This document shows positions 23,101 through 47,300 of a DNA stretch of 64,000 nucleotides, in pieces. Below the pieces are notes generated by a model. It was not told the origin of the DNA. It worked only from the letters and a program-made list of their open reading frames with translations, and did not search any database. Where the stretch lies: the NCBI GenBank assembly GCA_022829145.1, contig CM040746.1, positions 29,663,832 to 29,727,831 on the forward strand, written 5' to 3'. Position 1 is the first letter of the stretch; every line of letters begins with the position of its first letter. The position numbers and the translations under genes were made by a program. This stretch comes from Albula goreensis. Taxonomy: Eukaryota > Chordata > Actinopteri > Albuliformes > Albulidae.

Positions 23101-25379
23101 TCCACTTCAGCATTGACAGCTATAGTGTAGTTTTGTCCTGGTCTGAGTTTCTCAATGCAGATAGTTTCTTCGGATGTGTTTCTTGTAGAGTGATCAACCA
23201 CATTCACCGTATAGAATCCATGATTTCCCGCTGGTTTCACCCATGACAGACACACTGATTCATTTGTAACATTTTTAACAGTGAGATTTATGATACTGTC
23301 AGCAACTGGAAAAGAAAAACAAAGAGAGGAATGATTGCAGTACATAACATGACTCTCTCTTCCTTTGGAAAATGGTTTGTTTAAATAGTCAAGACATAGG
23401 TGCCTATCATGGTCTGAGGGACAGTGATAAAATAAATCACAATACAAAATTAAAAGACCAGAAACAACACAGTGTAATATTCTCACAAAAAACATTAAGC
23501 TGTTGAATTCAGTTGTTCAAATGATTATTTTATCTCTAATCTCATCCTCTCTGTAAGGTTATATATCATGTACTCAGAGTACCGGACTGATAAAAGTATA
23601 CAATGGAGGACAATATTAAATGTACAAGCCCATTTCCAAGAGTGTGGTAACATGGACTCTGTCAGCCTTCCCTCCAACATGTGTTGGATAATAATGATGC
23701 TGCCATCTTATTCCACTCTCTCATTGTCCACAAACTCACAGGTGTAGAAAGAGACGTTCTGTGGGTTGAGGTCTCTTTCACACTTCACAGGGAACACCTG
23801 GACTCTGTACTCTGTGCCTGCTGTGAGGTTACCGAAGTCCAAGGTGAGGTTGGTTGTGTTCTTGGTCAGGCTCATGTCTCCTCTCACCTCCACCCTGTAC
23901 AAGTCAATGTCTCCAGGCCCAGCCATCCAGTTAATTGTCATGGTATGCAGGGTCACATTGGAGACACTGGCATCGCCATAGAAACGGTCTGCAGATGGAG
24001 AGGCATAACAAGGAATGTTAGAGAGACATTTGGGAATAATTGGTAGAAAAGGTGCACATGAGTGTTTTCACTTGTTACATCAAGTAAAACCCAAACCATA
24101 ACCATGTACCCTGTAACCTCAGAGCTACTCTTCAGTGATGTATTCATCCACTGTGATATATAAAGGATTCTGATTCCTGTGCTGCATTCTTCCATCATTT
24201 TAAGTTGTGGAAATTGCAGAGTACCAGACTCCCTCCATTTGCAAAGCATACACATACCAGAGCATCTGCTTTATATATTTTGACTGTGAAGTAAAAGGTC
24301 AGAAATATGTTCTCATACATTCTACAGTGTCTTCCCCGTCCTTGTTTTAAAATCGTCTCCTTACCTTCATAGCAGATATAGGGCAACAGTTCCGTGCAGT
24401 TCTTCTCAAACCACAAGCCAGATCTGAGGAGAGACACACAAAGTTTCTCCTTTTCTTCCTCTTCCTCAGTAAAATTACGAAGAATCAGAGGTGTACTCAG
24501 AGAAGGGGTGACCTCCGTTGTGTTATTGGTGATGTTCATACACATATCTTCAACCTGGAGGATACATACATTGCCCTCCAAGTCACTATACTCTGTAATA
24601 TTGATGTCATTCCTGCAGAAATCTCCAAGCTGGAGCTTGCACGCATTGGACTGTTGCACTGGAGGTTTTTCTTCAACTTGTTTAGGCTGGCCTGGATACC
24701 AGTTTTGGAAGGTCAGCGGGTCACCATTGGACCACCAGGACCAGGGCAAGGAACTATTCACATCTTTGCGGAGACCGATCCAGTAATCAGAAGTGAGGTC
24801 TTTGGCAATGAGCTGGATGTTGTCAGAGGTGAGGCTGACAAGTTCCTTGTAACATATCTGACAGTGACTTCGGGCTTCCTCCCAGGTGGACTCATTGCCC
24901 TGGGGGAAGTACTGCCGCTCTGCACTGCAGCAAGCACACACTAGAGGTAATGATAAGAGAAGAACATGTCAGCCAAGCTACCAATTTTTGTATGGCGCTC
25001 TGCTCAAGCCAAGCGGCATGTCAGGTACAAAATAAAATTACGGAAGTTTGCTGCAGTAGATCTTCAGTGTGAACTCCACATTTTATCCAGTTTTAGGTAT
25101 CCATGATCCAACCCATTTGGTTTTATTTTCTGTATAAAATCCTGGGGTCTGTAAAATTTAAAAGGACTGAGGTGTATGGGATCATAGATAAGGAAACTGC
25201 CTCTGTTTGGGCACTCGTTTTGCCTCTGTATTTTTTCTTGTTTGATCTTCAATCTTGTGAAACCTCTTGCATGTCCTGTTTCAAATATGATCTTACTCTC
25301 TGTATTTAAAATATTAAAACATTACATTAGTCTCACCTATAAGAAGAAGGATTCCTGTTTTTCCCATCTTCAGACTCAT
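20120..25379 (-). CDS. Secreted C-type lectin domain protein with five fibronectin type III domains, 697 aa
   Basis: Nine exons on the minus strand: 25337-25379, 24365-24940, 23740-23988, 23054-23305, 22030-22305, 21652-21912, 20862-21131, 20461-20558 and 20120-20188; 2094 nt, all phases agree. Residues 1-22 are a signal peptide (GILLLIVCACCSA); the second ATG (M5, AAGATGG) has a better start context than the first. Residues 23-206, one exon, form a C-type lectin domain with YWIGLRKD, NWYPGQP, LW and PYICY and a glycosylated insert; no clear EPN or WND. Five fibronectin III domains follow, one per exon (about 208-289, 291-373, 375-465, 467-552, 554-642), all phase 1-1, each with the central Trp and the L-x-x-G-x-x-Y/F core, and many N-x-S/T sites. 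The last 55 residues contain two cysteines and a basic helix-like end. No transmembrane helix is visible, so secretion is inferred. The FN3 repeats resemble those of PTPRJ/PTPRH-type receptors, but no phosphatase follows. Confidence 0.85.
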
Positions 25380-27284: not shown

Positions 27285-28018
27285 AGTACAATTTTTGTTG
27301 TTTTTAACTGCACAACAAGAAGGAGAAAGAATGCCTTACCTGTGTGTATGACACGACTGGCATGAGAGAGCGATAGTGTCAGCATGTGTGGTTTAGTGCA
27401 AGAATCGTTTAATTAAAGTAAATATACAACTGGTAAAATAAAGTGCTCGCAATTTGAGCTTTTCGATTCAAACAGAAAGCACAGACAAAGTGAAAGAACA
27501 GACTCCTAAGTCATGTCTTTAATCACAGACTAAAATGTCTAAATTGATCCAAGTTTTAAGCAAGAACAAAACCTACACAATACATCAACAATACAAAAAA
27601 GATCATCATAAACAGTGACCCCAAAAATGTCTTAAGGTAGAAAAATATACAGTAAGCTATTATACAATGACCAGGCTGCCAAGAGTCTCCTCCATATCCT
27701 TTTTGGACAGAGAAAGGCAGTATAGTGTGAAAAATGGTAAATGTGGTTGATTCAGTCTGATTTACTCCAGTTTTCATACAAAGCTATATACATAAAGCAG
27801 TGGCTGGCAATAATCTCTGAAAATTCATAATTTCTCATGGAACACCACGAGAGAAATAGCAGCTGAGTCATCACAGAAGCAAAAGCATTTATATTGGGGT
27901 TACAGAAAATAAGTAAAATTGGAAAATAAAACTGAAATTTACAAAGCAGCCAACAGTTTCAGGCTGCTTTTTAGTATAAATAGGCAGCTTGGTCTTATGG
28001 CAGTGAAGCAGACTGGTC

Positions 28019-31000
28019 TCAGTCTGTGTCACTTTTTCCTCCCTTCATCAGCAGCTTCTTCCCTTTTCTTGGTTCAGTTCGTTCACTCTCCCGCTTGCTT
28101 GCACTCTTGGGGATTCTGCAACAAATCAGGAAGGTGACCCATGAATTGTTGCAGCCTGCAGTACTTTCTACAGAAACAGTGTGGGCGGGGGGTGGGGTGT
28201 GGCTGGAAGGCAAAGTGGGCATGTGAGTGTGAAAGCAAGGAAGGGAAGCGTGCATCCTCCACTGCCTTTATAATAGCTAGCCAGCTCCACACAAAGTAGC
28301 TGTGGCTAACCTGCAGCTCAGCCAGCAGACTGGGGAAAATCGGCAGCAGCTGCCAGAGTCTCAGAGAAGTGCAAGCTTGCCCATGCTCTCCAAAACTTGG
28401 TAAGCAAAGCTATGATAACACAGGCTTACATAATAGGTTTTAAAAACCCATGCACACAAGAATCTGGAATGTAGAACTCACAATTTCTGCTTGTATTTCT
28501 CCACATCTGCAGGTGGCACCAAGTCCCCCAGCTCCAGGCTGTCATTTATTTTCTTTAGCATGTTGTATCGCTCTCTCCCTCGGATCTGAAAGCAATGGAG
28601 AGACAAAGCTGGGTTATAACCCAAACACACACGTATTTTAGCCCCACTAAAAACTGACAGGCTCTTGGATGTTTCACATCAACTGTGTAGGAAAACTGAC
28701 ATCCATAAATGAACTCTACAAATGAAGTCTACCCAAGTAAAGTCCATAAATGTTAGGGCACTTACGGCCATATCATACACAGGCCTCACCTCCAATGTGT
28801 AAATCTCATCCTCTAAGCTGATGCTGGTTTTGGTTTTCTTGCTGGCTTCAGACTGAGGGGCTGTCTGGGATACCTCTTTGAAGCCTGAAGGAGGTCAGAA
28901 TGACAGTTTAATAGTGAGGACATTCACCTGCACATCCAACTGGACACACTTCACATGGACATCATTACACCTCAGTGCTGTACCATTCACAAAACGTGCA
29001 CAATGTGTACAAGAACAATGTTCTTATGAATGTTCTATGGACATTTAGGCATTTGTCATTTTTTTCCTTATCTGAATTTGTTCTTTGGTATTATCCATAG
29101 AATCGCTATGTAACATTCAATATTTTTCACCACCTTAGCTTTTCAAACAATACGCTCAATTTTTTAAATCGTTTTGGTGTCTTTGGTTTGTTTTATTCTG
29201 GCCATTCTTCACTCATTTTCCATCAATGAACTTATTACTGTGTATCTGCCTGTGCATCATAGCCTTCGGGCCAAGCAATACATATTAATTAGCAAAGACA
29301 TTAAGCTCTTTTCACTGCCTCACACAGGGAGTAATGTATATAATTCTTATTTGGTTTAAAAAAATACCAAAACATTTTGTTCCTGTCTAATGGTTTTCCT
29401 CTATGGCTTCTTCACAACTGCACAGCTTTTTACAAGACTTTGGTTTTCTCCCTTTATTGAGAGCAGCCAATGGTTTTCTTTTGCCTCAAGCCAATAATGT
29501 GTCAGTGCATCCTATTTCAGACAAAAGATCCATAAATCATTTTAAAACTGCTGACCTCTTGGTCCTCATACCTCCTCTCATTACCCACATCACAATAACC
29601 CCCCCCACCACACAACTCACAGCCCTTTCCCTCTCTTACTGCGCTTGGTCCCACTGGAGCTCTTGGCAGTGGCCTTCTCCTGCTGTTTCAGGAAATTCTC
29701 CTCCTCGGTCTTCCGGTCTCGGCCAGGGCAGGCGCACACACGCACCTCAAAGCAGCTTCGGCCCAGGAGCTGTCCGCTGGAGAGGAAGAGAAACAGAAAT
29801 ATTTCAAAGTGATACACACACAGGAAAAAAGTGAAACAAAGGCTGAGAAGAGTGGTATATACATGACAGACTGACTCACTCTTTGGTCTCCAGGGTAATT
29901 ATTGTTAATATGGGCCGCCGGCTCATTCCCCCCATGCAGCTGGAATTGCACATGTATTTGTATAACACAGTGGTGCACTCCGAGCCGCGCTGTAGGCAAA
30001 AATATAATTCGGTTAATCAGTGCACACGATGCAGTTCAGGACATAAGAAGAGGGTTGGTAAATAGCAAACCTGGGGAGATTCGTAGGGAACCACAACACT
30101 GTGCCTCTTGGTGTTTTCATCCTCCATGTACTGGGCTCTTGTGCAGCCCTCCACCTGAATCAGGTGACTGGGAGGGGCACTGCCTGGAGGTACAGGGGAA
30201 AAGGAGGAAACAAGCACAATTTCCATTTAGTTGAATTCTGGCCAAAACAGTCTTATAAAACAGACATCCATTCCTCCATCTGCCTTAATGAATCGCCTCT
30301 GAAAGATTTCTCACCTTCATTGTGCTCAGCAGCCTTCTCATGGTGGGGGCAACGGTGCACCACTGAGGCCATGTGTTCTGCCTTCTTATACACACAAGTC
30401 GCCCGTACCACAGCACCAGGTGGAGGGGGACGGTCCACCAATATTTGGACTGGACAGGTTTTATCCAGTTGGCAGAACACTTTGTTAAGATCTGGAGAAA
30501 ACTGCACAGGGAAGAGGGGCTCAAGTAGTGCAATCTTCAAATAAACACAGTCTGCCATTTATAACTGCATAATTATAACCTGTGAACATGTATTAAGGAT
30601 TTTCCCAATTTGATTCTGCCTGAGGTGCATTCAACTGCTGTTAAATCAAACAGTACAACCTCAAATACAAAGTAGCAATTTAAAAAGGAATGAAAACATT
30701 GTTTTGAAGTCATTACACATTGAGAAAAATGGAATAAGAAGCAACTGTACAGCTTTTCATTGAAAGCAAATCTAGTATGTGGAGAACAAAGTAAAGACCT
30801 TGAAGACAGACTGATCTGAACATTTTGTACACACAAATATCCCATCTTACCTTCTGTAACCCACTCAGTTCAGGCTTTTGACAGAACACATCAACTTGAG
30901 TCTTTTATTGATATAAATAGCATCCGGTGGATTCATTAAGGTCCAGCCAGTGGATTCATACAGGACTGTAGGCTTCTTCTAATTTTCATTTCACTCTTCA

Positions 31001-34000
31001 TAAAATGTTTATACCTTTCAGCTAATATAAGATTTTCCAAGAGTTTCTGTAAACACACTGCATGATCAAGATGTTCTCTAAACTTATTGGTTGATATTAC
31101 TTCTAGTTCCACCCCCACCCCATTTACAGAAAACAAGTCATGGCATGCCTTAGACCAGAATGCATGCATCAGCACAGACACAAGGGAAGTATGTGTTGTG
31201 TTACTCTCTATTGCAATACACACACACACACAAAGTCGACTATGAAAGTAACCTACATTAATATGTGATCAATTAATCCTTGACTGACATGACTGCCAAT
31301 TAAACTATTTACACAATGGCAGATGATAAAGAAAAAAAATCCATCCATCCACTTTTAAGGGCAATGGCACTTGAGCCACACATTCTCCTGAAGATCGCAC
31401 ATAGTCGCCAAGTTATTGATATAAAAACATAAATCAGCAACCCATCCCGGGCAAATATGCATGTGCCTAAAATAGCTTGTTTGAACATTAAGTGTTGCAG
31501 TTGAAACTACACTAAAATTTTTATCTGAGAGCAAACAACAGGGTCAGACCAGACACCTGCAGTGGTACGAAAGGCATGTATGCTGGTTTCATAGGTGGTG
31601 TGTGATTAGAGGTGAGGCGGCAGTGTGGAGAGAAGCGTTATTGTCCTTGCGTGAATTGGAGGGATTGTGTGCCTACACCTCTACCCCCCTTAGTCAGCAG
31701 GATGCTTGCTGTTGTGATTCAACTAGTTCAGTCAGAATTTGAAAAAACAGGGGGGAGGGAGAAGGAAAAAAAAAAAAAAACAGGAAAAGAAAGTTAATTA
31801 ATCCTCTTGTGAATAAAAAGGGGAGGTGAGAGGTGCCAAAAAGGTGCACAGCTGCCTACTACTGATCAATGTTGCCCAATTCTGAAAGGTTAATAAAATT
31901 CTGACAGACACTTCTTGTGTTCCTTCGTACAAGGATGAAGCTTAATTGTCTTTAATACATCAAACAAACAAGTTCTAGCTTGGTTTTTGGAAATGTATGT
32001 AGAAAAATATGAAATGTTAAAAAAAAGTTATGGATGCTTTCCAAATATGACATGAAAGTGTACTGTTTACATTGCGAAAACTTGCTCCACAATGGGGCAA
32101 GTTGTAACAAGTCGATCAATCACAATTTTGAAATGGAGGGCACGGATTCTGTAGAGAAAACAGTGGTGCCAAGAAGCAAAGTGAGTATCATTAATAGAGG
32201 TTCTTAATAAATACTTTGTGGTCTGCATGGGAATATTTCATACTCTGTCCTGCAAAGCTTCATGACAGTGCCCTCAACAAATAAAATTTGTTATATATAT
32301 CCTCAAGGTTTCCACATGCACAATTGTTAATGAATCTGGTTCAAGATACGTTAATGGGATTTACACATGCTGTACATCGGTTTTCCAAGTTCTTTCATCA
32401 AATACATGCAAGTGAACTTCAGGTTTTGATGCACAGTCTTCAGGTTACGAACATCTGAATTACGTACAACTCATACTTGCGTACAGACTGTCATAAAACC
32501 TATTATATTAAAAATTCCAAGTTAAATACAATGGCTTCGGCAGTTCATCGGCTGTATTTGGAAGTGTTTCTTAAGTGTTTTACATGCATGGTAAGGTTAA
32601 ATATATACTGTATACCAAGACAAACATTTGACTAACTGATGCTAAATACGAACCATACGTATCTGTTCTGACTTGGGTACAAATTCAACGTAAACACAGA
32701 CTTAGGAACGGATCTCGTTCGTAATCTGGGGACAGGCTGTACAAGCACAAGATTCGGGTTGTGTGGGGCACAGGGCCATCAGAAAATGATTCTACCTCAT
32801 TCATGAGGACACACCAGAGGTAAGAAATCTATAGAGTTTAACATGTTACAAACATCAAATGCCCCTTTAACAAATTCAAATGTTTACACATACAAGATGA
32901 TAAAAAAAAATATAGATCTTAGTTCAAATGAAAAATGACAGTGATGTGGTTGAGCCACAAAATTCTAGTATCAAGCGAAGATTGCGTCAGTGCTGACAGT
33001 CCTTATTTGGGAAGCTTATTTGGCTGTAGAATGACCCTGAAAGGGCAGGATTAGACTGGTGCACAATATTTCTGTCCGTTTCCCCATGCACACTACTGAC
33101 CCCCTCTGGTCAACTAGTCCGTTTGGAAAAGCATTTCTGCTAAGTGCCTAAATGCAATTGTACCTACCTACATACAATCTGCCCACACAAAATACACAAG
33201 ATACTCCTTCATCTCTAAATCTGAGTAAGCCCAACTGGGAAACAAAGCAATTTGAGAGGAGAGCTACACTGATTAGCATTTTGTGTTTACAGTGTTATGA
33301 TGAGTTGCCATTTAATTACCATTTGTTCATTTGGCATAGAAGAAACAAGTGATTTTACCAAGATTATGGCCTCTCTTAGAGCAGCAGCTATTCACAAATT
33401 AAATTCTTCTAAATGCATACCAGACAGAGTTTACGGCTTTAGAATGACAGAAATATAGCCATTTGTGGGGTAACAGGGTAAAATCACATGTTCTTGGTGA
33501 AGCTGTTGGTTCAGCAACTTGTTAGTTAGCATTTTAGAGACTTCGTGTCACTGAATGCACGTACAGGAGAATGAGCCACTCTGGGACATGTTGTTTTGGG
33601 TGTTTGTGTATAGTACAATAACAAAAAACTTGGTGAAAGGCAGGATTGAGAGTGTGTACTGCTTGCAGGCACACATGTGAGAAGGTTGGTGAGGGACTCA
33701 CGGTGCAGGTGACAGACTTGGCAGTGCCGGATTTCTGAAAGCGCAGTTGGAAATGCAGCTCTCCCGGGTAGTCAGTGGTGGAAGGCACAGTTGAAGTCAC
33801 GGGGGACTCGCCATCCAGGGCTGACACAGACGGCTGTGGTGGTGGGGGGGCAAGCATGTCAATAACCCCAACATCAAAATTTTCCAGTAGAGGGGTTTCC
33901 GACAACAACTGCAAGTTAAAGACAATGAATGCATTACTCTTTCATGAATAAGGTTGTTCTACACAAAGTTGTTATAAAGTGAAGGCAATACTGTAGCAGA

Positions 34001-34793
34001 GGTTGTTCATTCAAGTAAAACTTTAGGGAAACACTTAGGTAGGACTGGCCCAAAAGGCCTAATGGTCTAACTGGAAGTTTTTGTGTCTTTGGATAGAGCA
34101 AGTTTTGGTTCCCAAAACTCCCCACAGAATTCCTTTCAGTGTGCAAATGCTAAGTGTAGTCCACTATATTGTTCCAGAGCTTTCTCCAGAATGCTCAAAT
34201 AGAAATTAAAAAGTCACCACAAGGTTTGTTTAATATCTGTAAATAAAATAGCTTCAGTTATCTTTGACAGTCTTCTGAGAGAGCTTTTGGTGAAATTGTG
34301 CGTTACAATTTGCCTTGCCATTACTGCAGGATATGGATTTATTGAGAAAACAGGACCAAAACTATGATGATATTAAGCCTTGCCAGAATAAGGATAGCTG
34401 CATTACTGCGTAATCAGGCCAACTTTCTTTATCCAGGGGATCCCATGGCGCATTCACAGTTGAAAGTTCACCGATGGAGGCTGGAGGAAGCCTATGAAAA
34501 CAACAAAGCAAAGAATGTGCTGTACCAAAAAATGACGACATAAAGGCTTTGCTAAATTCAAATTCATAAACATTGAATTTACAGAACAGAGAGGAAAACC
34601 AAAAAATGTGATCTAAAAATAATGACACTTGTGGCTGTTGGGCAGCTCTGTGCAGACAGTCACCTTTGCCCACGTACTTTAGAAGTAGTGGCCCCTGAAG
34701 TAGGTTCCCTCCCGTGGTAGACACTTACATATTCCACAGCGCCTGGAAGGACTCCTGGCTCAGGGGAAGGGACTCGATCTCCTGATCAGTCAT
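28019..34793 (-). CDS. tp53: Cellular tumour antigen p53, 399 aa
   Basis: Ten coding exons on the minus strand: 34729-34793 (ATG; the exon starts at 34860), 34407-34491, 33702-33908, 30315-30501, 30071-30183, 29880-29989, 29640-29776, 28790-28884, 28482-28585 and 28019-28115; 1200 nt, phases match the human gene. The protein is the stress-activated tetrameric transcription factor. Residues 9-22 ([14 protein letters not shown]) are the MDM2-binding activation motif F-x3-W; a proline-rich part follows; the DNA-binding core spans about 90-285 with zinc ligands C170, H173, C233 and C237, DNA contacts R243 and R268, and CACPGRDRK; the tetramerisation helix region is about 328-360 ([14 protein letters not shown]); the basic tail ends KGGKSDTD. 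Conserved positions altered relative to human include A138 to D132, R174 to H168, R196 to Q191 and N247 to S242. Intron 4 is long (3.2 kb) and carries a candidate p53 site. The exon 3 donor (GTAATG) is weak, so that border is the least certain. Confidence 0.97.
30502..30558 (-). other. tp53: In-frame ATG extension upstream of tp53 exon 5
   Basis: Reading back from exon 5 into intron 4, the frame stays open for 19 codons to an ATG at 30558 ([19 protein letters not shown] then exon 5). A transcript started in intron 4 could use it to make an N-terminally shortened p53. Human M133 and zebrafish M113 are not present at the matching sites here (V and I), so this ATG would be a substitute. Confidence 0.35.
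31217..31232 (+). repeat. (AC)n microsatellite
   Basis: A short CA dinucleotide run within tp53 intron 4. Confidence 0.7.
31590..31760 (+). repeat. Old SINE-like repeat, copy B
   Basis: Resembles 640-1000 (see there). This copy lies in tp53 intron 4 and is followed by an A-rich tail at 31767-31782, consistent with a retroposed element. Confidence 0.4.
32078..32104. promoter_or_regulatory. tp53: Candidate p53 response element in tp53 intron 4
   Basis: Half-site AAACTTGCTC (32078-32087) fits RRRCWWGYYY perfectly; after a 7-base spacer comes GGGCAAGTTG (32095-32104), with one mismatch at its last base. Together 19 of 20 positions match. Its place in intron 4 is where the zebrafish internal promoter for the short p53 isoform resides. 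Confidence 0.45.
32434..32739. mobile_element. Non-autonomous DNA transposon (MITE) with terminal inverted repeats
   Basis: The left end reads CAGTCTTCAGGTTACGAAC and the right end, reverse-complemented, CTGTCCCCAGATTACGAAC; subterminal parts also mirror each other (ACTTACGTACAA-like and TAGGAACGGATCTCGTTCG). Length is about 306 bp, with no transposase. This end sequence is widespread in fish genomes; the family is probably Tc1/mariner- or pogo-derived. Confidence 0.55.
32780..32870 (+). repeat. Dispersed repeat, copy 2 (ATGAGGACA block)
   Basis: Matches 9190-9285, with core ATGAGGACACACCAGAGGTA. It abuts the right end of the inverted-repeat element at 32434-32739. Confidence 0.45.
33060..33175. 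repeat. Fragment of a teleost SINE/MITE-like element
   Basis: GGAAAAGCATTTCTGCTAAG followed by TGCCTAAATG is the reverse-orientation form of the same common fish element as at 10139-10345 (AAGCGTCTGCTAAATG type). Confidence 0.4.
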
Positions 34794-35046
34794 TTCTACC
34801 TTCAGTCTTTCACTTTTGCACACACTCTCAGGACAGATGCACCAGGCAAAGCCAGAGGAGCTGAAGAAAGGGCAGAAGCTGTGGTCACTCAATGCAATGT
34901 GCATACCCCCGTAAGTTCAAGGAGTTGCCAGGAAAGGAGAAAAAAGATTTTTTGGCAAATCTCTTTTCTCTGAGCAGATACTGAGCTGTGATATTGGTGG
35001 TATAGGAGGCATGTAGGAAGGGAAGGTTGTTACGGCTGATTGATTT

Positions 35047-35066
35047 AAAAAAAAAAAAAAAAAAAA
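35047..35066 (+). repeat. Poly(A) tract
   Basis: Twenty consecutive A residues in tp53 intron 1. Confidence 0.7.
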
Positions 35067-35289
35067 GAACCAGGAAGGAGCCATTTACCTTTTCATTTTA
35101 ATTACTTACACATTTGACCATATCCATCTCTATAAGCTAGAGTGGACCGGAATTAAATACAAACTTGTTTATGTGGCATAGTTCAATAAGATTAATTTTT
35201 CAAAAACCCATAATTACAGTATTCTAGTACAGAAAAAACAATGATTACAATGAAAAGAAAAAAGTCAGACTACAGTAGCTCTTTCAGGT

Positions 35290-35410
35290 GGTATGCAGGG
35301 CAGTGGTCCCTAACATCAGTCCTGATGCTGGTATGTATGCTGGTTTCTATTCCAACCACAACTGCAACCCAACAATCTTATCAAGCTGTTAATTGTTCAT
35401 AATTGTTCAT
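35290..35410. repeat. Fish dispersed repeat, copy in tp53 intron 1
   Basis: The pattern GGCAGTGGTCCCTAACATCA, then GTCCTGATGCTGGTATGTAT and GCTGGTTTCTATTCCAACCA, is a common teleost repeat style. A related block lies at 62368-62500 (CTCACTCCTGGTCCAGGACA). Confidence 0.35.
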
Positions 35411-36370
35411 GCTTTTCATAGTTAGAGAGATAATGTGTCATTATAGCTATGCATGTCATGAAGGAAAAGTTCCTGTACTCATATTGTGTTAGTGATTTTG
35501 CAAACCCAAATACAGAAAAAAGTATTATAGACTGGGGTGAATCAATACGCTCCTCAAGTCACTGAACAAATGATTAAGCACCTTTTTTCCTTATGCTTAC
35601 CTACACAATGCAGGTTTTGCAAATTATAATTAGCTTTGTCTTTGAATCCTTCATTAGCTACCAAATGGTTAGCTTTAGTGGTCATGTGTCCAGAATCACC
35701 CCAGTCTTGAATACGAGTTAAAACATTGTACTTGTCTTTATGCAGTTACCTACCATATGGCACAATGTGAAATAGGAACTTTTCTTCATGATATCAATGG
35801 CTATAATGGCAAAACATGTCTAATCATGAACAATTACAAGACAACCTCTCATAAAAACCACATTCTCACAGTCACACAGAACCGTACTGACTTAAGATCA
35901 AACGCCATTTAAAGTGAGAGGTAATACGTGCATCAGTATGCAAAAACCGTACTCAAATCAATCCAAACAGCTTCAAACTCTTTTACCCTCCTAAGTGCCT
36001 TCCGAATAACAAATCTGAACATTTTAACTCGAAGCCATTTTAAGACACTACGATAAAACGCAATACAGAGACGTAAAATAGATGACGTTAGTCGACGTAT
36101 GCCTGTTATGCTATGCTAGCTAGCATTCTTATTAGAAATCTTGTTTTTTCTTAACTCCATAATGGGGGTCTGTTTACAAAGATTTCTTCCCCAGTACTTA
36201 TATAGCCCATGTTTAACTAAATAGCTTTTCTAAGACGGATGGGCCCCGAATCAGACCCGCAAGTTAAATCTATCGTGCCTCAAGGTTTTTAACTGTTTAA
36301 TTCACAATGGCTAGCCGGTACCTTAGTAGTGAAACTATTTTGAAGGAGCGACCGATAAATTGATAGCTAC

Positions 36371-36440
36371 CTCTTCTTTTGAAGTCAATCTATGTCCGAT
36401 TTTTCCAGTCTTTCTGAGCTCCCCTGTCGATCTGAGCGTT
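36371..36440 (-). other. tp53: Probable non-coding exon 1 of tp53
   Basis: On the minus strand a short block ends in the donor AAGAG|GTAGCT (36371/36370). It lies in a local CpG-containing zone (36000-36450) 1.5 kb upstream of exon 2. A non-coding first exon is the rule for tp53 in vertebrates; the exact start is not determined. Confidence 0.4.
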
Positions 36441-36443
36441 GGA

Positions 36444-36451
36444 TGACGTAA
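36444..36451. promoter_or_regulatory. tp53: CRE/ATF-like site in the proximal tp53 promoter
   Basis: TGACGTAA, one base off the full CRE, immediately upstream of the proposed tp53 exon 1. Confidence 0.35.
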
Positions 36452-36459
36452 ATATTATT

Positions 36460-39400
36460 CTTAGATAGCTAAGGTAACGTTAGCTAATTAAACATTTGAT
36501 TTTTCAGGGATTTCAGAGCAGCCATGCGGTCTGACTGTCGGAATTCCCCGAAAACTCGTAGGAGGAGCTATATATCGTACAGTTGAAAGTGGATATGTCA
36601 GCTGATCACATATCCGCCAACCAGAGACTGGGCAATCTGATGTGTTTTTCGAATGTGTGTCTGATATGTATAGTCGATAGCATATAGAAAGCAGATATAA
36701 TTGTGTAAATGCAGTTGATAGGAAATCAAAAATAGCAACAAAGTCACTGTGTCGGCCAAATGTTCGGAATGGATTTTGCATTTTTTTCCGATTGAAAAGC
36801 AATATGGCACCTTGGCAGATTTTGAACCGTTATCCCTAAATCTCTTACCGAACCTTTATCACAGATATGAGAGATATCCCAAGTGCCATGCAACGTGAAT
36901 CTGGAAAAAAGGTCCACCTTCAGCCGCTGATTGTAAGGCCCACATTCAGATTGTCAGTGTTATGTGACTCAACCTCACCCTGCGCCATTGGTCACAGGCA
37001 TTGGAACCCTTGCAACCAGCAGGGAAGATTTGTTGAACAGTTCAAGTTGATCAAGTTATAAAACGCTCCAGTTCAGCGGCAGATCAAATTACTAATATGA
37101 CGTTAATGTAGACTTAAAATTTATATTGTTGCAATAGGAAAACCATCAGGAAAGTAGCTCACCTTATGGTTTGTTAGACCAGATTAATATGTATGCATAA
37201 TTAGACAGATATGTTTGTCTAAATCGTCAAAAATTACTCAAAATTTACTGTGTAACTTCGATTAAGGGTGCGTCCAATCAGGTATTTAGGGGCTTGCACA
37301 AAGCTCTTAATAGGGCATGAAAAAGGCTTTAGCCCTATCTGACTTCTCGTGCCTAACCAAGTAATTGAACAAGTCTGAAAAATAGCTATAGGGTACTCAG
37401 CACACTTAATGTGCATATTATGCACCCTTGCCTTTATCCTCCTTCTGAGCGTTAAGTGTTTCTGACATAATTGTTTTGATTCTCTATTTTCGTCCCATAA
37501 ATAAATGGAGTTTCATAGTCAAGAAGACGTACAAGAAAACCTTGTAAGCTATTGATAATCAACACAATATTAATATCACGACATCTAATCTAATGGTAGG
37601 ATGAGGATGCTCAGTTTTTATTACCGTAATTTGATTGTTTGTTGAAGCATCAAATGCTGTCCTGCTTGAAAGGTGTTATATATAAGTACATTAATTGATA
37701 TATTTTGATATATTTCAAGATGTCCAGTTTAAATAGCAAGTGTTTTCACATTAGCAGTAAAATGCAATTCAAGCTAGTATGTTTTGTAGTCAGCAAAATT
37801 GCACTGATTGAGGCATCATGAGGGTGGCACCAAACAAAAAGCCTGTCTCAGTGGACACTGAAAATTCTCCCTCATTCTTACCCCAGGTTTAACCGCTCTG
37901 CTTTTGTTCTGACTTTTACTTAACTGGAAGTGTCACTCCATATGATAAAAATTGGCAATTCAACACAGCACATGGCAATACTGTAAGGTCAGTACTTGCA
38001 TTTATGTCAGTACTTTATTAACCTGATCATTTAGGGAGCATTGGCATACTAATCAGTCCTCCCTGAGATGAAACTTGGATTTGGGACAACGTTTACACAA
38101 CATGGCAACACAAGAATGTACAAAATGATTTGAGCCTAAATTCCATTCTGTATACTTGTGGACTAATTACTTCCATACTCGTGTAATTATACAGGTTACT
38201 CCCAAGCATACTTGTGAGAACATGCACCATTTTTTTTACATTTGGAACCTACTTGACAACATCATTAAGGGCATAAGCACACCTTTTAATTTTTACTTTT
38301 CATGATATATATCATAAGTAACATGAAAAATAGTGTAATTAAGGTGACTGCCTTGTAAATACATTTATGTGTTTACATCTGTGGTTGCTAATGTAAATGG
38401 TGGTTACTGTGTTCTGCAGAATGATCTCTGGGAAGGAAGAGAACATACAAGCATGGGTTGATGCATACTCAAAAATGTGTCCCTGTCCCACACACAAGAG
38501 CATGTTCAGAGATCATGGTATGCACTTGATTTTTCAATACTTGGAAACTGTAACATTTAATGACAGAGACAATGGAAAATGCCTACTTAGTATGCAGAAT
38601 GATGGGCAGGCAAATCTGCCCTATTCAAGGCGGTGTGAGCTGATGTTAAATTGTGAATTTACTTTAAGGTTTTAATGGTATTAAACATAAGCTGCAATAG
38701 TAAGCCAGATAGTGTTTGTGGACAAATAACATGACATAAAAAGAAGTTTATTTCCTCCATTCAGGGTCAGCTAATTTAGCTAACTGCTAGCACATTCTCA
38801 AGTTCAGCACTTTTCTAACTCATTGCAATTTGCACTGGCACTGTTCTCCATTAACTTGCATTAAAACATGGTGATCTTGTAGATTCTACACCATGTTGGT
38901 TGTACCAGTTTCAAAACTGCTGAGCTCTTCAGACAGAAGTTTTTAGTCAATGACTTCATGAGTGCAAGCAGTTGGGTGCTAGTGCCCTCGAGGCAGAAAC
39001 CTTTACAGGTGATTTAAAATCTTGTGGCTGTCAGTTCCAGCTTGGTTCATGTAGGCAGTTATCAGTTGGAATATGTAATTAATTCTGTGCAGTTGCATGC
39101 TGTGGTTGGAGGATGGTGATCAGAACGAACAGGCCATATTGAGCTGCATAATGTGAGAAAGCTCATGCATACTTCCTGAAACCTCCATGCCGTGAACACA
39201 GCCAGCTTGTGTATGCTACAATCACTTCAACCAGCTTTCAAGACAGATTTTTTTTTTTTTTTGGCAAGGGATCACAGCTATGGTAGCTTGATTATCACAG
39301 ACCCATTTCAGAGATCCAGTCCCTGGTGATCATGGGTTTTAGGATGTGTTGGTTTTGAATACCTGAATGTTTAATTGGAATTTGGATACATGAATCAGAA

Positions 39401-42400
39401 AGAAAGAATTGAATGTAACTTGGTTTTTTTTTTAACTTGAATGTGTGTTGTGAAACATTATCTGAAGCTGAAATACATACATATTACAATTCTACATCCA
39501 ATAATGCAAGTTAGGAAATACAAATCAAAATTGATTAATTCAGATTCAACTGCTTTTGGTACTGATTGCATAGACATAACTGCACTCAGAACTTATGCTG
39601 TAGCTGGATGTGTGGGCTTTGCCTCACTTTGTGTCAGGCCGAAAATAGAGCCTTGAAACTGACAGTCATTGTGAAATCTAAAACTCTCCATATTACCACA
39701 ATACAGAAAACAGTTTTTTTAATGTCAGACCACAATTTACAATATCAGGATGCATGCACTCCAGCATACTTCCAGATTGACTGTTTTATGTACTCTGTTA
39801 AATCTGACAAATCGTAGTCTCTCGCTTTCAGAGAAAATATCAGAGAATATTGTATATATTGTGCTAAATATATGTAATATATCTTAAGAACATGAATTAT
39901 TTTCTCTACACAAATTATATATATTCATATGTACAAATTTACATGGGAAATATACAATTTACCAATATGTCTCAAGTTCTGCAAGAAAATATCAATATAC
40001 TGCATTTTGTAATTTGTATTATAAATATAGCTTATATTTGGAATCAAATCAATTATTTAGAATATACATAAGAATTGTGCAAACACAATGTACAGTATGC
40101 ACAATAACATTGGGGAAAAGTTTGACCTTTTCATCAATGCCATGGTGTAGCCAACAGGGACCCACAACAAATATATATCTGACCTGCTGTGACCTAACTT
40201 CTGCCATATAATTAAAAACCAGCCGCCTGTGTACTCAGAGACCAGTCCTAAAACAGCATAGGAAGTGAAGCACCATGTGCTGTGAGTAAGGAGGAGGTGC
40301 CTGCAAGTGTCCTACACCAAGAGAAGCTAAATGCCAACCAGCATGAGTCTTTCCCTAAAAATAATTCCAATGATAACTATAATTCACATATCCTATAAAT
40401 TTATTGTTATTTAAAATACATGTAGAATATGTTAAACACTTTTACAACACCAAATCATTGAATGCATATGCCCAGTGGTTAAGATTATTCAAAAGCATAA
40501 TCACAATGTTGTGCAGGGAAGATGTGCTTGTATATGAGTAATTACTTTGTGCATGTGTCATTGAACCTTTGTCTTATTTATTTTGGGTGCAATTTATCAC
40601 CCACTTATTCACTTTACAGATCAATCCAGATATGTACAAGTAGCAAACAGTTGCATTAGAAAGAAGAGGAAATTGAAAAAGCAGTTGAAAGAGGCAAAAG
40701 CAAATGCTGTTCAGCCATTTTGAAGCATAAAGCAGGCACACTTTCAATTGCGCACATCACCCATTTTCTTGTATACAGTATATAAACAATAAGGCTTCAA
40801 ATACAATCTATCCTGATTGAGCTCGCAAAATTGGTTTAGAAGACTTGGATTTATAAATTTAGCATATCAGACTGCTTTTGTAGTTGGAATTCTAATTGAA
40901 GTAACTTAGCCTTTGTGTGCTGACAGGCAGTGAATATTTCTATTTTTAAATCTTCATTACTTAAATCCATCAAGATTCATTAGAACGATATTATTGAACC
41001 ATGTCTTGGTTTCATTATCTTCTTATTTGATTATATCTTGTACTACATATCTATATCTATAGAGTACAACTACTGTACTTTAGATCTCAACTAACAAGGA
41101 TAACATGTGCATGGATTAGCTTCATGTTTATAGGGATATAAACAGGAGTAGGACAATTATTCACAGTTATGATGGTTTGCAGTTTGAAATGTTTTTCGTT
41201 GTCATGTCCAATGTGACATTCCAGTGAATTTCTCCAATTAACTTACCTGTTGCAATTAAAATAACAATTAAAAATCAACAAAAACAGTATTTGCAAGAAA
41301 AAAAACGTTGTCTGAAGCAAATGACAATTGGCAGAAAAATAAAAAGGATTCCTATTTATACACACCGTTTTAATATAGTTTCCATAAATACATCAAAAGA
41401 TGTGATGTATTTTAAAATATGGGCAACAATGTATGAAATGTAGCTTGCACAATATTGTATTAAAATATATTAGAATATACACAGCACGTAGGAACACTTC
41501 TATTTCATCTATCAATAAACAATGCATATATCTATAGGTTATCTATATTTAATGTATTCCCCTTTAAGTATGGTTTTAAATGCCTTCAAAGGAAGTTTCT
41601 CACAGTAAAAGTAAATCCAAATATAAGCAGAAATAGTAAAATGCTGAGCTACTAATGTATATGGAATGTGAATCTTAATCAGTAAAAATGAAAAAAAGGC
41701 CAAATGCTTACTAAACATTTTATAAGTTATTATAAGTTATGAAATGTAATTTGTATTTTGCAATACATTGCCTGTTCAAGTTAATAAATGATTTACATCA
41801 ACTAATTTATTATTTTACAGAGTGTAATTTATTAAAAACAGACTCAGAGATACTCCTCATGATATTGCAATGAGTTACAGGGGAGAAGGCATGTATAGGC
41901 ATGTATAGTTCTCAAATACTGCTATTTTGAGCTAAATATTGCCTGAAACAAACTGTAAAATTATTTGTAAGCGCTGCAGTATTAAATGGGATATACACAA
42001 AATGGCATCCACCGAAAGCTTCCTGATTGCAGTGTGATGTTGGGTAAATGTTAAAGATTTATATTACGATTTAATCGAAAATAAATATTAATATTTACAT
42101 AAGCATTGATTTTTTTAAGGAATATGTATTCTCTCTTTTCTTGAGAATCAATTCCCTTTGCAAAAAGATCAAAACAATAGATTTGTATGTGTAGATAAAG
42201 GTGTTTTTATAAAGTGAAATACTTGAAACTACCCAAAACTTTAATAAAAAAATAACGATTGTTATAAGAAATAAATTGAGTTATAACCAATCGGAACAAT
42301 ACGTATGTTCAATATTTTCATTGCTAAAAAATATTGATAAAAGCTGTCAAGGCAAATATTGACTGAAAAATGAAACATATATCCTTTATATCGTAAAAAC

Positions 42401-42909
42401 CAGATATATTATAGCAAAAGTGTATTTAAATCGATATCAAAATGTGCTAACGACAAAAGCAAGTCATAAAAATACATTTATTTGTCAAAAAAACAATAAC
42501 TTTGAGATCCTGCTTCCTCACAGTACAACCTGTCCCTTTTACAAACAGAGACTCATAAAATGGCGCTCTTCACACCGAACATAGAACAGAACTTTGTAAG
42601 CTGGTTTCGAAAGATATATAAAACTCCGAATATTATTTTCTTCCAAACTCCAAATATTACTTTTAGGCAAGAATTAACAGTATAGGGTCCTGACAGCTTC
42701 CCCAAAACTGTCATCTACCACATGTTGCTACCAAACAGCTAAATACAACCTTCTTCCCAGGTAATACAACACAAAAGGAAAAAAACGCTTGTTTTAACTG
42801 AGGAAAACTCAACTAAACTGTATAGATACATTGTGTTTCGGGCTTATAATGCCAACATGCAAAACATGGCAAAGCAAGCTGATCAAACTGCAAGTTCTAA
42901 GATGGAGTC
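36460..42909. other. Long AT-rich stretch upstream of tp53
   Basis: About 6.4 kb without a supported exon. It contains short T- and A-runs (39248-39262) and very AT-rich sequence from 39800 to 42500. If the 43 kb exon belongs to tp53, this is part of its first intron. Confidence 0.5.
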
Positions 42910-42915
42910 ACCCAC

Positions 42916-43010
42916 CTTCCAAGGCTGAGGGCTGGAGGTGCCAAGAGTTCTCCCAAATCAGCTTCTAAATTTAACTGACTTTCAAATAACAAATTTAAAT
43001 CCGAATCCAT
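42916..43010 (-). CDS. Isolated first coding exon; candidate alternative N-terminal exon of tp53
   Basis: ATG at 43010 has a near-ideal start context (AAAACCATGG) and opens 31 codons beginning MDSDLNLLFESQLNLEADLG, then LGELLAPPALSLG, before a donor AG|GTGGGT at 42916/42915 (phase 2). The peptide is acidic with hydrophobic clusters (LNLLF, LGELL), like a transactivation domain. No other minus-strand exon was found before tp53 exon 2, whose acceptor at 34860 gives a matching phase: AG joins C to make Ser, then 22 open codons lead directly into the tp53 ATG. That would add 54 residues to p53. Alternatively it is the first exon of an unrelated transcript, or of a gene whose next exon I missed. 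I do not recognise the peptide. Confidence 0.45.
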
Positions 43011-43071
43011 GGTTTTGAGTTTTGGGGACCCAACGTGGGGGTGATTATGCTTATATTGAACTTAAACAAAA

Positions 43072-43199
43072 CCGGAAGGGGAGGTTGTCAGAAATTGGGG
43101 GGATGGGGCATCAAATAAGAGGTAAAAACGTCAGGAAAACGAAAGAAAATTAACCAATGAGAATTCACAAGGAAAACAGGGGTCTAACACGGCGCCAAA
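43072..43199. promoter_or_regulatory. Promoter cluster: ETS, ISRE, CCAAT and E2F motifs
   Basis: Upstream of the 43010 ATG lie CCGGAAG (43072-43078, ETS), GAAAACGAAAG (43135-43145, fitting the ISRE core GAAANNGAAA), CCAAT (43154-43158) and TTTGGCGCC on the minus strand (43191-43199, E2F). On the plus strand a consensus donor ACA|GTAAGT near 43322/43323 hints at a divergent transcript. Confidence 0.45.
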
Positions 43200-43910
43200 T
43201 AGTGTATCTGTGGCCCCAGAATCTATCAGAGCCCTCGCCCCAGAAACATATCACTGAGCCGAGCATCAGCTTTCAAAATAACAGGGAGACCAAGAAAGGA
43301 GAGAAAAGCAGGAAGCACAAGACAGTAAGTCTGATTTAATAATGATTGTAAATTAGCGTTATCTGAGATTAAAAATGATGCTGTTGGTCTGCAAAAAACA
43401 TAAACAATGCCAAAAAGAAAATAATAAACACACCAACCCTCAAAGATGTAACCGACACCTCAGTCCTTTCAGTTCCATTTGACTGGGCTGATTCATTCAT
43501 GCTGACAGCTGGTTTCAAATATAAAAATGTCACATACCCACAGAAAGAAATATTCCAATTCCTGGATCTTCTGCTCATTCACCTCATTACCCAAACTTTG
43601 TTCTGTGTCTCTAACAGTGTTTCACAGTAGTTTGAAATGACTAGCATCACGGAAGTGCTGAGTAATTTGTTTTTTTTTCTCCCGCTCTCTTTCTCATACC
43701 GGCTCATGCTGCATTGACAACTTCCGCCCGCCTTATTTTTTCACTGCCTGGCAGGTATTCAAATTGAATCCACCACATCCCCTGCATGCTTTCTCTCTCC
43801 CTCCCTGTCTTTGTCAGCAGACTTATCAGAATTATCTTTCTCACTTGAGCTCTGTAGATGTTGTCCATTTTATTACAGTTCCCTCTTATTTCAGTGGATC
43901 TTATTCTCTC

Positions 43911-43951
43911 TCACACATACACCCACGCACACGCGCACACACACACACACC
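43911..43951 (+). repeat. (CA)n microsatellite
   Basis: An imperfect CA dinucleotide tract with CG interruptions. Confidence 0.8.
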
Positions 43952-44233
43952 AATCGGATGTGACCCAATTCAACTGAAACAATGGACCAGCTGTTTCTTA
44001 AACACTGCATTTTCTCAGACTTCTTACTGATAAAATATGTGGGTGGGAAGTACACTGAAACATCCCTGTGAATGTACTGTACATTCTGTGTTTTCACTCG
44101 CCATTTTATTACTCAAAGTGATGTGGTCTTGCAGTGCTCATTTCCCCATCCTTTTTGGTTTGTGGGACTTGGATAATATTCAAGTGATACAATATGATGA
44201 CTATGATTATGTGATAAGTTAAATATTGTGCAC

Positions 44234-44235
<2 letters not shown>

Positions 44236-44281
<46 letters not shown>

Positions 44282-44300
44282 GTGAGAGAGAGAGAGAGAA
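44236..44300 (+). repeat. (GA)n microsatellite
   Basis: About 42 bp of pure GA followed by an interruption (ACGAGT) and a further 16 bp of GA. Confidence 0.9.
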
Positions 44301-47300
44301 TTGGCAAAGTTGGGGATACTTGGTTGTGAAAATACATTTCATATGAAAAGCAACTGCTAACATTTTCTAAAAGACAAGGCTATTGTCTGCGTTATGTTTT
44401 AACCTGGTTAAAGGTGGTTTGCCCTGTGTTATTATTTCCGTTCTGCAGTCCTTCAAATGAAGAGAGAAACTGACAGTGAGAGTATTGAAATTAGTCAGTG
44501 TCACACATATGAGGAGAAGCAACGGTAGAGTGCACAGCAACCAATCAAAACCCTGTTGCTGAGGCTGAGGATTTAGACGTCACATCCTCTCCCCACATTT
44601 TTGCATGGCCTCTGTTTGTTGTAATTTCCATCATAAGTTCCTCATTTACAGAAAACAAGGAACAAAAATACAGCATATTCTCATTGGTCCTTGTGAAATT
44701 ATCTAGATATTTCCATCAAAATAAAACCATTTATGAGGTCATATGCAGTTAGATTACTAAATTAATTATTCATAAAGTATGACCATTTCAAAACATTGTC
44801 TTTAATAAATTTGATTTGTGTATTTTGTTTGTTTTTTATCACCTCTGTCAAAAAGCACTTATTTAGTATTACTGTATGTTGAAGTCATCACAGAAATAGA
44901 CTTTTCCTTGCAAAGACAGAGGACTGTAATGTGGTATATAGTTGTATGAGGACACTGAGACATCCTCTGAAATTAAACATATTTCTCGCCTGAGGGGGGC
45001 AACATAGTCCCTTATTTCAAATTCCCTTTACAACAGTGAGAAACACCATTTGCGCCACAGTTTTTGCTTTGAAATGTAGTGTATGCATTGAAGTTCAATA
45101 TACAGCAAGAAAAAGTGACTAGCTGAAATGTGTGAAACATCAAGGAGCTGTAAAATGGTATGAATATGAGTTAAAAAATAGCTGTAAGACCGTATCTCGT
45201 CCTCCTGTACATGGCCACAGGGAGAACATTCACATCATCTGACTTGCTGTCACCTGTTTGACCAGTCACATGGCCTGTGTGTTTGTATGAGCTCATGTGA
45301 CTTTCACTGAAATGCCAGTGATTGTATGGACAACATCACAGGCCTCCAAGGATTTATCTTGGTTTTGAGATGGGGAAAGGAGATGGCATTATCAGTATGT
45401 CACAATAATGTGCATGAGTGAATGCAGGACTGAGGGGAGGGCTTGTCTGTCACAGGGTACAGGAGTGTGAGTGCTGGCTGGGTTTCTTCTGCAGTCTCCC
45501 TCTGCCTCTCTGTTTCACAGTCTGCGCCAGAAAGGACAGCCCGACCTTTCAAACCAAACTGGCACTCAGACAGACAGACAGACAGATTAGGTTTCTGTCA
45601 TCATCCTCATCCAAAAAATTGTATCATTGTTTCATCTCTATATTAATCATCAAATGTGATAATGAAAATGTCATACAGTGAAGCTTTCTTACTTTTTTTA
45701 TTTGTGATGAAAACCAGATACCTAGGTACTTTACTATACTAAATGCTACTATGAGCTGTAAATCATTGAATTGTCTGAACAAATCAAAAGCTTTTACTCT
45801 CATCTGAAAAGAAATGATTGGGTAGCTAAGCCAAGTTTCTGGCTGGCTTCATAGTCAACAGAGAGGAAATACTGGGAAGGTGGAAAAATGCTACTTGATC
45901 AATACATTTACAGTTTTATTCATTTTTGATGCCACATATACAGAACATAGAGCTGGATGATCCAACAAAATCCCAAAATGACAAATAATAGTTTTTTCAT
46001 GATATTGATACCATGATGGTTTTGATGATACCATTTAAGAAACTACTCAAAAGGAAATGTAGTGTAGGGTGAACCTAATCCAGCCAAATGCAAAGTTTTT
46101 ACACTGCAGTGGCCCATCAATTTTCATGATATCCTTATGCAGGCACCCTGACAGTGTTACTTTATCAGTGATTAGTCTGCTAATTTTCTTAATTGTGATC
46201 TGTTTGTATACATTTCTTTCTTTGGCATTTCAGTTTTTCTATGCAGCTAAAAAGAGTGTGCATTTACAATTTTCTTTTCATTTTTTAAGGGATAATAATG
46301 TCTTACATTATTTTGGCAGGCTCTGGGTTCCTCTCCCAGCCATGTACTAAGGCCCAGGGCACTGTTCTATGAGGATTGAGTTTCTCTCCATTTAGTGTGA
46401 GCCACACACATGACTCTGACTGGGGCCCTGGCTTTGGGAGCTGGTGTCAGGTTCAGCCCCTCTTTCTCAATCAGCATCTGCGATCAGTGCATGACAAGAA
46501 GGGGGGCACTGTGGGAAGGACAGACTGGAATGAGGTAGGTGTGTGCTGATCAGGGAGGTTGTGAAGCACAGAGTAGGCATTTTTCCATTACGAGTTTGGC
46601 GAGTTGTATCTAACACGATTGCTGCCCTCTGACAGCATCCCTTTTATCCCCCCTTAAAATCCGCTCCTGTGACACCAAGTTTCTCCACCCTCCCCTCTCT
46701 GACTATCAGAATGGTATACCCTGCCATTCAGGAGCACCTGTTGCCTTGGAGTAGGATTAATCTTTTTCATATGGAATAGGGGAGGGGTGAGGGCTAGGAG
46801 TGGTAGGATAGGTCGAGTGACTGACCCCTTTGGCATGCGTTCTGAAATAGCAGGGGATTTACGACCGATGAAAAGATAGACAATAGCCACCCGGACGGGC
46901 CCAGAACAGACTATGTCCAGAAGTGTTGAGTCACAGCTTCGATTGGCGACGATCACTGGCATTAGTACTCAGGAGACCCCCACAGCACCCTCTCATCTCC
47001 ACACACTGGTATGTCTCCAGGTCCAGTTTACCGCTGCTGGGGTCCTGCACATGCACGTCAATGGGCGTGTGTGAATGGGCGTGGGACGCCTGGGAACTCA
47101 ACCGAGACTTATCCAAGCTGGTGCTCCACATGGCTAGTAAAGGAAACTTGCTAACTCACAGTACTTCCATATGTACTTCCATATGCTACTCATAATAGGA
47201 TTTCACAAGTTCATCAAGTTTCTAATGCAGTTTTAATCACATTTTACATTGCAGTATGCACTGCACATTGCATGCAGTGGGGGCAGTGCTGTCAACAACA

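Follow-up and report, generated by a model that had tools for sequence, protein, structure and literature searches.

A candidate distal first coding exon upstream of tp53 in the bonefish Albula goreensis

The tp53 gene and its surroundings

The stretch of DNA analysed here (64,000 nucleotides, referred to as the window) comes from the bonefish Albula goreensis and contains tp53 on its minus strand. The identity of the gene is indicated by the presence of both the P53 DNA-binding domain (Pfam, 5.2e-17, in exon 5) and the P53_TAD domain (5e-07), and the traced part of the gene is identical to P0001, the p53 protein deposited for this species (100% identity, with 87% of the query covered). Nine exons were traced down to position 28482 (34860-34729, 34491-34407, 33908-33702, 30501-30315, 30183-30071, 29989-29880, 29776-29640, 28884-28790 and 28585-28482), exons 4-10 occupying 28482-33908 and the last exon lying outside the trace. 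Exon 2, the acceptor of which reads CTTTCTTCAG|C at 34860, consists of a coding part (34729-34793, MTDQEIES..., TAD1), where P53_TAD is found, preceded by a leader (34794-34860) in which one base is followed by 22 open codons that run in frame into the p53 ATG. Exon 3 (34407-34491) provides an alternative acceptor with the same phase as that of exon 2. A non-coding canonical exon 1 is likely to be found near 36.0-36.6 kb, and the usual promoter is putatively placed with it at 36001-36600 (minus strand) from the CpG observed/expected ratio, which is 1.13 in 36001-36500, one of five 500-base intervals with a value >0.75 across the 64 kb.

Upstream of tp53, a gene-poor stretch is followed by a plus-strand sugar-transporter gene (Pfam Sugar_tr, 2.1e-13; exon near 52746), which we take to be GLUT4. 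Farther along the window, a PRY/SPRY exon (5389-5946, plus strand) and an open reading frame with a C-type lectin domain (24198-24968, minus strand), both identified with Pfam, point to immune-type genes beside tp53. A transposase-type HTH_Tnp_4 fragment (12211-12597, minus strand, 1.3e-17) and a THAP domain fragment (15112-15417, minus strand, 8.1e-14) were also noticed near lectin/FN3-like genes.

The distal candidate exon and its rarity

An earlier note on this DNA had proposed that an exon far upstream of exon 2, once spliced to it, would generate an N-terminally extended p53. As read from the letters, this candidate first coding exon of tp53 (42916-43010, minus strand, 95 bases, phase 2) begins with the ATG at 43010 in the full Kozak context ACCATGG, encodes MDSDLNLLFESQLNLEADLGELLAPPALSLG (31 open codons) followed by two bases, and ends at 42916 with the donor AG|GTGGGT, read as AG|GTGGGTGA. 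The strong-context ATG, the 31 open codons and the phase-2 donor that had been described are thus all found, and so are the matching phase at 34860 and the 22 open codons leading into the p53 ATG: joining 42916 to 34860 yields AGC (Ser), the 22 codons and then MTDQEIES, in agreement with the 54 extra residues that had been counted. The symmetry of exon 2 and the alternative offered by exon 3 had been overlooked. Because exon 2 is 132 bases long and symmetric (phase 2-2), a join of the distal exon to exon 3 is equally possible and would drop TAD1.

A TATAA string that may serve as promoter is present at 43051-43055 (minus strand), 45 bases before the ATG. Further upstream of it, CCAAT-type and E2F-like strings are found (CCAAT at -88, ATTGG at -148 and TTTGGCGC at -189; 43094-43199, minus strand), these being string matches that do not imply function. 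A (GA)n repeat of 64 bases (44236-44299) lies approximately 1.2 kb upstream of the distal exon.

The description of the encoded peptide as acidic is borne out by its net charge of -6, a value reached by just two of 536 other open 31-codon ATG peptides of the window; three of 537 such peptides, the distal one included, reach six net acidic residues, and 0.4% of 1124 do so once the set is enlarged with 60 kb of Albula DNA from elsewhere. The codon usage of the exon does not resemble that of coding sequence, in that 48.6% of 537 null open frames score as high; the test, trained on only 650 codons, is uninformative. A coactivator-type motif (hydrophobic-x-x-hydrophobic-hydrophobic in an acidic context) is present in the Albula peptide and in the upstream starts of the carp, Leuciscus and Rhinatrema p53 models discussed below, as well as in the non-acidic start of Arapaima, and is missing in those of Conger, Brienomyrus and Clarias; it carries no evidential weight because it occurs in 217 of 1124 null peptides.

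Among the 13 minus-strand phase-2 ATG exon candidates upstream of tp53 (donor score >=4, 50-170 bases, 34.87-54 kb), the distal exon has the strongest donor and is the only one in full Kozak context. The region 34871-46000 contains one phase-2 ATG exon that combines a donor score >=10 with full Kozak context; when this region was shuffled 200 times (dinucleotide shuffles), such an exon arose in one of the shuffles, and one of any phase in five, while 248,000 strand-bases of real Albula DNA (the window and the stretches L022-L027) contain five ATG/phase combinations this strong in four places, the distal exon included, all figures that flatter the distal exon because the thresholds were chosen after it had been seen. 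Two of the other three places resemble real coding exons when inspected by eye, and one of these carries what we take to be a MutL-like motif. As to the agreement of phase combined with an open leader, the earlier estimate of one time in ten is fair, corresponding, as we estimate it, to 1/3 times about 1/3.

Leader, upstream starts and paralogues

A protein search with p53 gave 1593 matches, 120 of them listed. In a quick tree of 37 p53 proteins, the gene in the window groups with copies from Aldrovandia, Gymnothorax, Conger and Anguilla (SH-aLRT 99). The leader residues are equal to those of Albula at 19 of 23 positions in the Aldrovandia model, 15 of 23 in Conger and 13 of 23 in Gymnothorax, and the corresponding values for the adjoining TAD are 17, 18 and 17 of 22. 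Therefore, the leader is probably constrained, as protein or as RNA; its open frame is a biased observation, because these relatives surfaced only through extended models. The similarity of the leader to models outside the elopomorphs is mixed, as judged from the number of null segments (of 2000) that match as well: 2 for Brienomyrus, 15 for Rhinatrema, 87 for Scleropages, 93 for Dallia, 110 for Clarias, 250 for Latimeria, 272 for Arapaima, 879 for Leuciscus and 1013 for Aldrovandia paralogue A.

With respect to the distal part, the Conger model, which belongs to the same paralogue, has an acidic start, MDSNSVPAFFNIEPKLEGLYATLDLG (MDS...), that enters the exon-2 leader at the corresponding point. 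The similarity between this start and the Albula distal peptide appears weak. Five of 1002 null peptides, taken from ATG exons of the window, match it as well; it is the only one of the eight reference starts compared to fall below 1% (4.7% for Rhinatrema, 8% for Brienomyrus and 30-97% for the remaining five). When every minus-strand frame in 34.86-54 kb was scanned freely for similarity to the Conger start, the distal exon came 41st among 2382 segments. The Aldrovandia and Gymnothorax models have other starts, basic and unrelated to the distal exon, which count against it and look like annotators' guesses. A protein search with the 54-residue extension alone returned nine candidates, none at E<=10.

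At least 17 upstream-extended or alternative-start p53 models were noticed. Six of them (Conger, Brienomyrus, Clarias, two carp and Leuciscus) start with MD or ME and are all net acidic, by +2 to +8 in the first 30 residues, the other 11 ranging from -4 to +1; one of the latter, from the caecilian Rhinatrema, contains an internal Met at which an acidic segment, MDLYPEDADTHPFGDLF..., is found. The Clarias and carp starts are closer to each other than any of 1002 null peptides is to either, and the score between those of Brienomyrus and Rhinatrema is reached by 0 and 1 of 1002. The sequence comparisons suggest that the Albula distal exon is tied to this acidic set only through Conger and, feebly, Rhinatrema. 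Since the M[DE] group was selected visually among the 120 listed proteins once the Albula peptide had been seen, and since the two carp and Leuciscus represent one lineage, an ancient shared exon is to be regarded as a hypothesis rather than a result. A composite query of five other N-termini barely widened the set, because the six of 820 candidates returned were the five sources and Leuciscus. As read from the proteins, the acidic M[DE] start is joined to the exon-2 leader in the predicted models of Conger, Clarias, Leuciscus and Brienomyrus, while in the predicted carp models P0038 and P0085 the upstream MDPTYPSTS.../MEPAYPSTS... segment seems to be joined to exon 3, an arrangement that would remove TAD1 and the MDM2-binding helix. 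In all these upstream-start models the similarity to the Albula peptide is weak or absent.

The Albula genome contains two further tp53 genes, one being paralogue A on C2, which falls elsewhere in the tree, and the other, on C21, a close duplicate of the tp53 copy in the window (L025, G000:C21:2738500-2748499, aligned with 27562-35300 of the window; the intron preceding exon 2 is 83% identical and the one following it 79%). Since the match with the C21 copy stops at 35300 on its upstream side, the distal exon and the likely canonical promoter both fall outside it. The exon-2 leader of this copy is frameshifted by the loss of four bases and contains an in-frame stop; such decay fits a leader freed from coding after loss of the distal exon and, equally, one that never coded. 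No convincing counterpart of the distal exon was found in the 24 kb upstream of the C21 gene or in the 19 kb upstream of the C2 gene.

Interpretation and relation to known isoforms

The strength of the start and donor among the candidates of the region, their rarity in shuffled and real DNA, the TATAA at a suitable distance and the acidity of the peptide count in favour of a used exon, together with the absence of a second copy in the genome search, the layout of the Conger model, the leader kept in three orthologues, the acidic MD/ME group and the layout of the TA*p63 exon. On the opposite side are the codon usage, the weak similarity to Conger, the frameshift in the C21 copy and the lack of a convincing counterpart on C21 and C2, along with the deposited P0001 model, which starts at MTDQ with no upstream extension. 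The proposal of a spliced, extended p53 is upheld in part: the exon is the strongest of the 13 candidates, no second copy was found, the leader is conserved and Conger has the expected layout, whereas P0001, the uninformative codon use and the weak match of the distal peptide give it no help. That interpretation is plausible and somewhat strengthened, and unproven.

It is a real possibility, to be given considerable weight while falling short of even odds, that the arrangement is due to chance, with an ATG frame and a GT site that lie unused between genes happening to match the phase of exon 2, and with a leader that owes its open frame to being a conserved 5' UTR. The phase and open-leader match would arise in about one case in ten, codons are used as in random sequence, the distal peptide resembles those of relatives weakly, the deposited Albula model lacks the extension and conservation of the leader could operate at the RNA level; the Aldrovandia and Gymnothorax models also illustrate how annotation can attach unrelated upstream starts to an open leader. 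However, chance accounts poorly for a start and donor that are jointly so strong, for the correctly spaced TATAA and for the unusual acidity of the peptide.

The distal site resembles a self-contained promoter and first exon, and could as such belong to another minus-strand transcript (a long non-coding RNA, a micropeptide or a lineage-specific gene) ending before or beyond tp53, a reading we consider unlikely. The interval from 36.9 to 42.9 kb could hold exons of no known homology, Pfam having covered some of the open reading frames. Yet the nine frames from 36-54 kb that were searched, that of the distal exon among them, gave no Pfam match (a tenth, tp53 exon 2, did), which leaves a further protein gene in this region with no Pfam match among the frames tested; the Rfam search of the window also gave none, and tp53 is the next recognised minus-strand coding gene downstream. 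The same nine frames agree, as far as they reach, with the earlier statement that no other minus-strand exon lies between the distal exon and exon 2; a non-coding exon 1 is likely in this interval.

Donation of exon and promoter by a mobile element is very improbable: LTRs do donate units of this kind, in which a TATA promoter precedes a short leader, and the p53/p63 family offers a precedent in GTAp63, where an ERV9 LTR gave the first exon U1, spliced to p63 exon 2 (PMC6746776), but a 601-base query over exon and promoter, run with a DNA search that passes over very common words, found only itself in the 932-Mb genome, and 40-46 kb showed no direct or inverted repeats >=20 bases. The 54-residue extension, when compared with the genome, matched its two exons in the window and three places at E 0.43-4.0. 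The resemblance to GTAp63 would lie in a distal upstream exon, with a promoter of its own, that adds an N-terminal segment, the p63 exon being LTR-derived and that of Albula showing, within the same search, no repeated or LTR element around it.

By taking all this into account, the reading we prefer, with a probability of roughly 0.4, is that tp53 uses the distal exon as an alternative first coding exon, in the manner of TA*p63. The promoter use, splicing, translation and function of this exon, which we infer from the genomic arrangement, would be as follows. A TATA-type promoter of its own, approximately 6.5 kb upstream of the probable usual tp53 promoter, would start transcription some 20 bases short of the ATG at 43010, and splicing would link 42916 in the transcript to either exon 2 (34860) or exon 3 (34491). 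The former join would lead to p53 extended by 54 residues, with an acidic leucine-rich segment, a Cys-containing leader and the normal TAD1; in the latter, the acidic segment would take the place of TAD1 and its MDM2-binding helix. If the analogy with TA*p63 holds, the added residues may provide a further or replacement activation segment and change the way in which p53 is kept inactive.

In TA*p63, an upstream exon 1 is joined to exon 2, in which a peptide read in the same frame precedes the usual Met and TAD, and the extension stabilizes an inactive dimer and becomes an additional activation domain once this is opened (PMC6746776). Albula shares with it the genomic layout, namely a candidate coding exon upstream of exon 2 and an in-frame leader before the usual Met; the p63 exon has been expressed and tested, whereas that of Albula is known from genomic sequence. 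Zebrafish tp53 also has alternative N-termini, but delta-N-p53 and delta-113-p53 are truncations, produced via intron 2 and an internal start (PMC2958959), in contrast to the extension or replacement of TAD1 proposed here; the N-terminal isoforms considered from reviews are likewise truncations (PMC11169513, PMC8647153, PMC13072146). Among titles and the beginnings of abstracts in the open-access literature, no extended, upstream-exon or alternative-first-exon form of a vertebrate p53 was found. In Drosophila, a longer N-terminal isoform of p53 exists.

A broader and rather doubtful extension of the preferred reading is that tp53 of bony vertebrates anciently had a TA*-type first exon, with an acidic M[DE] segment in frame with the leader, kept in bonefish, conger, mormyrid, catfish, carps and caecilian and lost or overlooked elsewhere, yielding a p53 with a second or swapped activation domain able to bypass MDM2. 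Public fish p53 models already hold similar upstream starts. If the Albula exon is used as proposed, the extended p53, with its extra or replaced activation segment, would share the TA*-type control of p63 and, where exon 2 is skipped, p53 would escape MDM2 through its N-terminus.
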